A DNA stretch of 64,000 bases from Drouetiella hepatica Uher 2000/2452 (GTDB lineage: Bacteria; Cyanobacteriota; Cyanobacteriia; Elainellales; Elainellaceae): positions 186,001-250,000 of the forward strand of contig JAHHHD010000001.1 in the NCBI GenBank assembly GCA_019359505.1, in the 5' to 3' direction. The translations under genes were made by a program, and so were the position numbers. The notes under the pieces are model-generated. The model saw only the letters and a program-made list of their open reading frames with translations, was not told the DNA's origin and did not search any database. This document shows, piece by piece, positions 3,807 through 61,341 of this stretch. The number at the start of each line of letters is the position of its first letter. Position 1 is the first letter of the stretch.

Positions 3807-3898
3807 TATAGCAACCGCCAAGGCGATTAGGACGGGGACATTTTGGGTGGGGCGCGCAGCGCCCCACCCAAAATGTCTTAAGCAAACTGGCGACAGCT
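3807..3898. repeat. Palindromic dispersed repeat, family A copy 1
   Basis: The element starts TATAGCAACCGCCAAGGCG, runs through TTAGGACGGGGAC, and then forms a perfect 18-bp hairpin (3838-3855 with 3859-3876) with a 3-nt GCA loop. It ends GCAAACTGGCGACAGCT. Related copies are at 13847, 19243, 21324 and 61244. It sits 12 bp beyond the tadA stop codon. Confidence 0.85.
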
Positions 3899-3910
3899 CT
3901 GTTCAGCAGC

Positions 3911-13823: not shown

Positions 13824-13846
13824 GTCTAGCTATCTTATGTGGCGAT

Positions 13847-13932
13847 CGCTAAAGCGGTTGGGATGGGGACATTTTGGGTGGGATGCGAAGCGCTCCACCC
13901 AAAATGTTCTGGGCAAACTGGCGACAGCTGTA
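13847..13932. repeat. Palindromic dispersed repeat, family A copy 2
   Basis: This copy matches copy 1 from GGGGACATTTTGGGTGG through ACCCAAAATGT and ends GGGCAAACTGGCGACAGCTGTA. The left end is degraded (GCTAAAGCGGTTGGGATGGGG). The hairpin (13869-13907) has about 13 clean base pairs with a mismatched apex. It lies between the psbK terminator and the convergent peroxiredoxin gene. Confidence 0.8.
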
Positions 13933-19242: not shown

Positions 19243-19329
19243 CATAGCTGTCGCCAGTCTGTTTTTAGTGGGGCGCGAAGCGCTCCACTAAAATGTCCCC
19301 GTCCTAACCGCCTTGGCGGTTACTGTAGA
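19243..19329. repeat. Palindromic dispersed repeat, family A copy 3
   Basis: In opposite orientation to copy 1. It runs ATAGCTGTCGCCAGTCTG, then a hairpin with GTGGGGCGCGAAGCGCTCCAC, then AAATGTCCCCGTCCTAACCG and CCTTGGCGGTTACTGTAGA. Arm and tag sequences match the other family A copies. Confidence 0.82.
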
Positions 19330-21323: not shown

Positions 21324-21418
21324 TATAGCTGTCGCCAGTTTGCTTGGGACATTTTTAGTGGGGCGCTTCGTGCCCCACTAAAAATGTCTCCGTCCCAGCC
21401 GCCTTGGCAGTTGCTATA
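21324..21418. repeat. Palindromic dispersed repeat, family A copy 4 (best complete copy)
   Basis: The 95-bp unit begins TATAGCTGTCGCCAGTTTGC and ends GCCTTGGCAGTTGCTATA, giving terminal TATAGC/GCTATA inverted ends. The centre is GACATTTTTAGTGGGGC, a TTC-type apex and its complement. It lies about 100 bp beyond the moeA stop. Confidence 0.87.
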
Positions 21419-27742: not shown

Positions 27743-27870
27743 CCTACGCTAGATCCAAGCTTCCGTAAACTGTTCCGATCGCGTTTTGCTCTGTCTTGCA
27801 TCGGTCTGGTAGTGACAAATCTGGGCATAATTTTTTGGAAATCCGCGCTCTCTTCAAAAAAATCACACAC

Positions 27871-27971
27871 ATAGCGCTACGCGCTTAGATCCAATGAGTT
27901 ATTTTTTGAGAGCCGCACGGAGCGCGGCTCTCAAAAAATAACTCGTCCTAACTCAATCATGTAATGCTATA
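27871..27971. repeat. Palindromic dispersed repeat, family B copy 1
   Basis: The element begins ATAGCGCTACGCGCTTAGAT and ends TCATGTAATGCTATAC. The perfect 21-bp hairpin (27896-27916 with 27924-27944) reads GAGTTATTTTTTGAGAGCCGC in the left arm up to its last base. The complement of the tag GTTAGGACGAG follows the right arm. It lies between the ABC ATPase stop and the GUN4 gene. Confidence 0.85.
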
Positions 27972-31181: not shown

Positions 31182-31220
31182 ATTAGGTTTGGTGGGGGCG
31201 CAGCCCCCACCAAACCTAAT
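31182..31220. repeat. Perfect palindromic hairpin (family C)
   Basis: ATTAGGTTTGGTGGGGGC (31182-31199) pairs perfectly with 31203-31220 around a 3-nt GCA loop, the same geometry as family A. The flanks differ from A and B. It lies 14 bp beyond the sigma factor stop codon and may serve as its terminator. Confidence 0.85.
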
Positions 31221-38410: not shown

Positions 38411-38680
38411 TATAGAACAAGTGTTAGGACGGGGAAGTTTTTGTGGGTGCGCGGAGCGCACCCACAAAAACTTCCTAAGAGGATCTTTGAAAAGTCCAAT
38501 TATTTAGTAGCGAAACGTTTTAAATCCCCCTCAATCCCCGCGCTATAGCGCCGCTGCGCTAGAAAAAAGGGGGACTTTGAGTTCGTTTCCCCCTTTTTTA
38601 AGGGGGCAAGGGGGGATCAAGAGGTGCCTAAAATCACAGCCGACCACTCTTTAAACATCTTCTAAGAGTAATGGCTATAG
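38411..38680. repeat. Palindromic element (family D) interrupted by a second element
   Basis: It starts CTATAGAACAAGTGTTAGGA with the TTAGGACGGGG tag, then a perfect 20-bp hairpin (38433-38452 with 38456-38475, loop GGA). Its sequence resumes at 38666 and ends GGCTATAG, after removal of the inserted 184-bp element. Confidence 0.75.
38479..38662. mobile_element. MITE-like element with GAGGAT inverted ends, copy 1
   Basis: The left end reads GAGGATCTTTGAAAAGTCC; the reverse complement of the right end is GAAGATGTTTAAAGAGTGG, matching at 14 of 19 positions. TAA flanks both ends (38476-38478, 38663-38665), as expected for a 3-bp target duplication. The inside is a C-rich/G-rich imperfect palindrome. 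No transposase is encoded. A second copy with the same ends and flanking GTGCCTAAAATC block is at 62947-63073. Confidence 0.72.
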
Positions 38681-41388: not shown

Positions 41389-41418
41389 AAATCTTTAATC
41401 CGGCGTTGCTGATTTTAT

Positions 41419-41473
41419 GGGCAAGTTTTTTTGAAGGAGGGCGCAGAGCGCCCTCCTTCAAAAAAACTTGCCC
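41419..41473. repeat. Perfect 26-bp palindromic hairpin (family E)
   Basis: Left arm 41419-41444 and right arm 41448-41473 pair perfectly around the 3-nt loop AGA. The apex GGCGC-AGA-GCGCC matches the style of families A and D. It follows the RTX-like gene by about 30 bp and could end its transcript, although no T run follows on the + strand. Confidence 0.88.
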
Positions 41474-41537
41474 AGATTATCCAGATTGCGTCCATTTACA
41501 GTAGCTTATAGAACAGTGCAATGATTCTGCTGCTGTT

Positions 41538-52020: not shown

Positions 52021-52120
52021 TATGGCATTACTTAATTGAGTTAGGACGAGTTATTTTTGAGAGCCGCGCGGAGCGCAGCTCTCAAAAATAACTCATTGGA
52101 TCTAAGCGCGTAGCGCCATA
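52021..52120. repeat. Palindromic dispersed repeat, family B copy 2
   Basis: Inverted orientation to copy 1. It begins TATGGCATTACTTAATTGAG, then TTAGGACGAGTTATTTTTGA and a nearly perfect 20-bp hairpin (19 of 20 pairs), and ends AAGCGCGTAGCGCCATA. The ends TATGGC/GCCATA are inverted. Confidence 0.85.
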
Positions 52121-61243: not shown

Positions 61244-61341
61244 TATGGCAACCGCCAAGGCGGGTTAGGACGGGGACATTTAGGGTGGGGGCGCTAAGCG
61301 CCCCCACCCTAAATGTCCTCAGAAAACTGGCGATATTCATA
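61244..61341. repeat. Palindromic dispersed repeat, family A copy 5
   Basis: Starts TATGGCAACCGCCAAGGCGG, has TTAGGACGGGGACATTTAGG and a perfect hairpin with the apex GGGGGCGCTAAGCGCCCCC, and ends AAACTGGCGATATTCATA. The stem letters differ from copy 1 on both arms in a compensating way (TTTAGGG/CCCTAAA versus TTTTGGG/CCCAAAA). Confidence 0.85.

Follow-up and report, generated by a model that had tools for sequence, protein, structure and literature searches.

Short hairpin-bearing repeats with IS630-type ends in a cyanobacterial genome

ISY100 of Synechocystis inserts at TA, which it duplicates, and is bounded by imperfect 24-bp inverted repeats, 30 bp of each end being sufficient (PMC2170065). 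In Anabaena sp. 90, 147 MITEs have been reported without a matching insertion sequence (PMC3542288), and tagged REPs are known in cyanobacteria as well, those of the CGTC type having stems of 8-9 bp, loops of 4-5 nt and CGTC at one end (PMC3733652). The repeats considered here come from a window of 64,000 nucleotides (G000:C5:186001-250000) in a cyanobacterial genome, G000, of 6.4 Mb in 87 contigs. They resemble ISY100, as far as its published description goes, in that the TA at their edges fits insertion at TA, and they resemble Nezha, again by description only, and other cyanobacterial MITEs in being short, multicopy, non-coding and mostly intergenic, with inverted repeats and a predicted secondary structure. 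Unlike the MITEs of Anabaena sp. 90, they can be assigned a matching insertion-sequence family.

Anatomy of the copies in the window

A preliminary description of the window had proposed several palindrome families, among them A, B and D, with different hairpins yet shared outer ends and a shared tag beside the hairpin. The copies that we recognize, all five of family C being additional to those named there, are listed below together with the parts of element D.

27870-27971, minus strand: putative IS630-type MITE of family A, 102 bp, with TATAGC-N14-TTAGGACG at one end, ..GCGCTATG at the other end and a 21-bp perfect stem
27924-27951, minus strand: inner TIR block beside the right arm of that hairpin, with TTAGGACG at 27944-27951
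27896-27944: perfect central hairpin of the 27870-27971 copy, 21-bp stem with a 7-nt unpaired centre
52021-52120, plus strand: putative MITE of family A, 100 bp (B of the preliminary description)
3807-3901, plus strand: putative MITE of family C, 95 bp
13838-13932, plus strand: putative MITE of family C, 95 bp, tag decayed to TTGGGATG
19243-19327, minus strand: putative MITE of family C, right side shortened, tag intact
21324-21418, minus strand: putative MITE of family C, 95 bp, tag decayed to CTGGGACG
61244-61341, plus strand: putative MITE of family C, 98 bp, 22-bp perfect stem
38411-38475, plus strand: left end of D (TATAGA, tag spacing 13) and a 20-bp hairpin
38473-38666, plus strand: separate repeat of ~190 bp joined to D, boundaries approximate, with 87% identical copies at C5:149671-149861 and C22:114570-114758

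The elements first described as families A and B belong to a single family, of which they are two copies that agree in their TIRs and in the core GAGTTATTTTT(T)GAGAGCCGCGC; the TATRGC ends reported for both, and the GTTAGGACGAG directly beside the hairpin, are confirmed by the sequence. Element D (38411-38680) is a composite that includes an independent repeat of ~190 bp. Its tag and hairpin stand, while the TATRGC ends attributed to it are doubtful, because of this composite make-up, a left end that reads TATAGA and a tag at a spacing of 13 instead of 20. Two further long hairpins of like style in the window carry no tag, one at 41411-41481 with GGCGTTGCTGATTTTA-type ends and one at 31182-31220 with GGAGGTCTA/GACCTCTTGC-type ends, and these are probably MITEs of other transposase families.

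Perfect hairpins were listed in a detailed survey of 850 kb of G000, and the whole genome and its relatives were searched by pattern; the C27 and C22 pieces of the survey were picked for holding tags, and densities from them are therefore biased. In the 850 kb, 48 copies of family C and 22 of family A have both ends, the elements being non-coding and 95-102 bp in size. In the window the tag TTAGGACG has seven occurrences where 1.24 would be expected; over the whole genome TTAGGACGRG has 219, and a reversed control pattern 59. A hairpin of at least 14 bp directly adjoins TTAGGACG at 39 of the 71 tags in the survey, compared with 1 of 954 for thirty permuted tags, and the association of tag and hairpin, which the preliminary description had allowed might be coincidental, is thus well beyond chance. 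In the same 850 kb, TTAGGAC follows TATRGC at a distance of exactly 20 in 43 of 50 cases, controls being flat, and in the aligned copies of both families the edge falls sharply at TATRGC, TTAGGAC keeping a constant distance inward of it. In family C, and in a small group at C22:111945-112039, TTAGGAC stands inverted on both sides and therefore constitutes the inner block of a TIR; in family A it is clear on one side, the other end being a degenerate version. The TATRGC ends and the TTAGGACG tag are not separate features: a single TIR of ~28 bp has the former as its outer block and the latter as its inner block.

A short conserved motif at one side of a palindrome, with a complement that contains CGTC, is reminiscent of the GTAG- and CGTC-tagged REPs (PMC3733652), and with seven Y1_Tnp matches in the genome one could speculate that the tag is a recognition tetranucleotide of the GTAG or CGTC type, mobility being provided by a Y1/RAYT transposase of the IS200/IS605 group. 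However, long hairpins flank none of the seven Y1 loci, and the tags in their neighbourhood number two, no more than chance would give. We rejected a REP/RAYT origin since the Y1 genes, although present, are not linked to the hairpins, and a CGTC REP since the elements have two inverted TIRs and far longer stems of ~19-25 bp with mostly 3-nt loops, where a stem of 8-9 bp and a loop of 4-5 nt are required; this reading is extremely improbable.

Correspondence to IS630/Tc1-mariner ends

TATAGC-N14-TTAGGAC is the TIR grammar of IS630/Tc1-mariner insertion sequences, in G000 as well as in other cyanobacteria. DDE_3 (PF13358) has 13 matches in G000, and the DDE_3 transposase genes of this genome sit within TIRs of this grammar; HTH_Tnp_IS630 and DDE_3 domains were found by Pfam, the elements at two loci (L072 and L073) measure ~963 bp, and TATAGCGCTACGCATGTACGTTAGGACA, or a sequence close to it, is seen in several of the copies that lie at contig ends. 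The left end of family C, 24 exact bases, recurs in 40 loci of other cyanobacteria and is letter-identical to the TIR of IS630 elements of ~964-990 bp in Tychonema, Microcoleus, Symploca and others. At least seven of the 40 loci each represent one terminus of an element of 964-990 bp, and in most of these elements IS630-type reading frames are clear; a complete relative genome holds an intact 955-bp IS630 copy with this TIR grammar in several places. The preliminary description had been unable to match the repeats to any known element class, a view that no longer holds, as the same repeat bounds complete insertion sequences of the IS630 family. The short elements share their TIR grammar and the TA at their edges with the cyanobacterial IS630 copies that we found (955-990 bp), but they are about ten times shorter, contain no gene and carry a central hairpin, a long hairpin being present at 0 of the 40 loci that match the family C left end.

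An IS630 copy of G000 with the exact ends of family C or A was not found, self-comparison of the 850 kb revealed no autonomous parent, and in the fragmented assemblies of G038 and G062, two genomes of another cyanobacterial family, the search for a resident IS630 with matching ends gave none. The idea that the ends follow the resident transposase in G038 and G062 is unsupported, no matching IS630 TIR having been found there.

Because the TIR grammar and the family C end are common to IS630 elements, and because TA at the edges fits IS630 insertion, the elements are very probably non-autonomous IS630/Tc1-mariner MITEs of ~95-102 bp, with TIRs around a perfect hairpin, mobilised in trans and with a core that evolves separately. 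Each would consist of two TATRGC-N14-TTAGGAC TIRs, one of them degenerate in family A, around a perfect hairpin of ~19-25 bp, the outer TIR block containing the TA at which IS630 transposases insert and which they duplicate. Multiplication would most likely proceed in trans through IS630 transposases, the HTH part binding the TIR and the DDE part cutting and pasting at TA, which would be duplicated at insertion. The hairpin core lies outside the insertion sequence and would follow an evolutionary course of its own.

Some further features of the IS630 copies may be recorded here. The ~963-bp copies at L072:129-1092 and L073:1439-2401 each have two frames, one for the HTH part and one for the DDE part, that overlap about a stretch of 8-9 A, an arrangement that looks like a programmed frameshift. 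At contig ends of G000 (e.g. C5:486354-486464, C27:295310-295639) there are about twenty IS630 3' ends that are nearly identical, as would be expected had a recently multiplied insertion sequence broken the assembly, and this one seems to have been broken in that way. Locus L071 (G000:C22:256980-260399) is a mosaic of a family A-type end, TAGGACTTACGCA and part of another transposase, followed by an IS630 C-terminal part and right TIR.

With respect to movement, the 27870-27971 element is absent from the orthologous spacer in the congeners G003 and G001; this is one site, and the junction is unreadable to the base because the spacers have otherwise diverged. TA is found at both edges of most copies, where a duplication is indistinguishable from TIR sequence, and the aligned copies of families A and C show no flanking direct repeats longer than TA.

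The pattern TATRGC-N14-TTAGGAC has 262 matches in G000 and 0, 10 and 28 in three congeners, and of 98 cyanobacterial genomes searched 62 contain it; control patterns gave counts near zero. The elements of G038 and G062, 95 bp long, have the same grammar and a hairpin of the same style with another sequence (e.g. GGACGTTTKTGTGGGGACGC-GAA-(complement)), and the junction TTAGGACGGGGACRTTT, which they share with family C, suggests common descent. The proposed superfamily with conserved ends and tag and varying cores thus holds in G000 and in another cyanobacterial family, except that ends and tag are not separate entities. In sampled elements of G057 and G084 the TIR grammar is present and the long hairpin absent. 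Four of the loci in these two genomes (L279-L282) have short tandem units (e.g. CTCAGCA, TGCCTCT) in the interior instead of a hairpin, and in two 94-bp elements of G023 (L277, L278), which have the same grammar, the sole palindrome is one of 11 bp without a loop, close to the right end.

One could also suppose that the hairpins serve the cell as RNA or DNA signals, such as terminators, mRNA stabilisers or protein sites, and that the shared ends are incidental. All seven family A and C copies in the window sit outside long ORFs likely to be genes, their stems are very stable, and the covariation of the arms described below would also be expected under selection for pairing. Yet a T-run precedes the stem and an A-run follows it on both strands, which is the reverse of an intrinsic terminator, an Rfam search of the window returned one tRNA and nothing else, and neither the sharp TIR edges nor their identity to IS630 ends would be explained, so that this account is very improbable, although a secondary effect of the hairpins on neighbouring transcripts is possible.

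Loops and arms of the hairpins

The GCGC-NNN-GCGC loop style noted at the outset is borne out: a 3-nt loop is present in 79 of the 136 long hairpins and is closed by C-G in all but one of them (78 of 79). In 66 of these 79 the triloop is GNA or its complement (C-GNA-G), compared with 2 of 38 short controls and ~16% of random trinucleotides. The copies are related, yet a GNA-type loop is found in 23 of 30 distinct 8-bp inner cores. C-GNA-G loops make for unusually stable DNA hairpins, and no paper on GNA triloops in DNA turned up among those searched.

The two arms change together. In the stem of family C the change is paired, affecting both arms, in 48 cells and single in 44, counts that do not represent independent events because the paired changes cluster at few positions, and the unpaired outer part has no compensating pairs (0). 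The loop lies in both orientations relative to the ends (GAA 10 and TTC 6 in family C; TCC 8 and GGA 6 in family A), and in some copies the arms extend into the TIR, with lengths of 39 bp at C5:183031 and, in a congener, 35 bp at L247.

Template switching between inverted repeats is known to leave homogenised arms and inverted spacers (PMC8604942; PMC8794818). The arms are probably kept identical by switching of the replication template from one arm to the other, which would also flip the loop and sometimes copy hairpin sequence outward into the TIR, and arm covariation, loop flips and palindromes growing into the TIRs seem to be as such copying predicts. Alternatively, arm identity could be due to selection for the hairpin and not to template switching. 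The 22 cells in which a single change retains a G-T pair, as expected of intermediates, speak for selection, as does the predominance of C-GNA-G loops across distinct cores. Selection alone, however, predicts neither loop inversion nor palindrome growth into the TIR in both directions, and both are known marks of template switching (PMC8604942; PMC8794818). We thus regard selection in place of template switching as conceivable but doubtful.

Exchange of cores and significance of the repeats

Exchange of the core, as the preliminary description had envisaged, does occur, since the same core is found with other ends and three hybrids exist. The core GAGAGCCGCGC-NNN-GCGCGGCTCTC is present 93 times in G000 and also in several other genera of the family, where the TACAGCGC or TATAGCGC ends that bound it are in some cases similar to the degenerate end of family A. 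In G000 this core is also combined with ACCAATTTAA-type ends, as in the hairpins at C5:420766, C5:140132 and C22:139905, and the three hybrids join a family A end to a ACCAATTTAA-type end (C5:151330, C27:5802 and, in L218, C1:75559). Most core differences within a family are paired substitutions in the two arms, not wholesale swaps, and the idea of an exchangeable core is only partly right. Ordinary recombination between dispersed copies could be the source of the exchange. A bolder reading, which we consider unlikely, is that the C-GNA-G hairpin is a portable DNA-structure module, advantageous to mini-transposons of several transposase families and passed between them, with cores and ends following separate evolutionary courses across the cyanobacteria.

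The pattern is real but largely explained by IS630, and the oddity left is a very stable central hairpin that recurs across cyanobacteria. In place of a supposed new class there is a rule, namely that TATRGC-N14-TTAGGAC marks IS630-type ends in many cyanobacteria, and with its help hundreds of repeats that bear no label can be annotated. The hairpins raise the question of why almost all of them bear one kind of triloop, and, being a large natural collection of perfect DNA palindromes, they allow events of arm-to-arm copying and of loop inversion to be counted.
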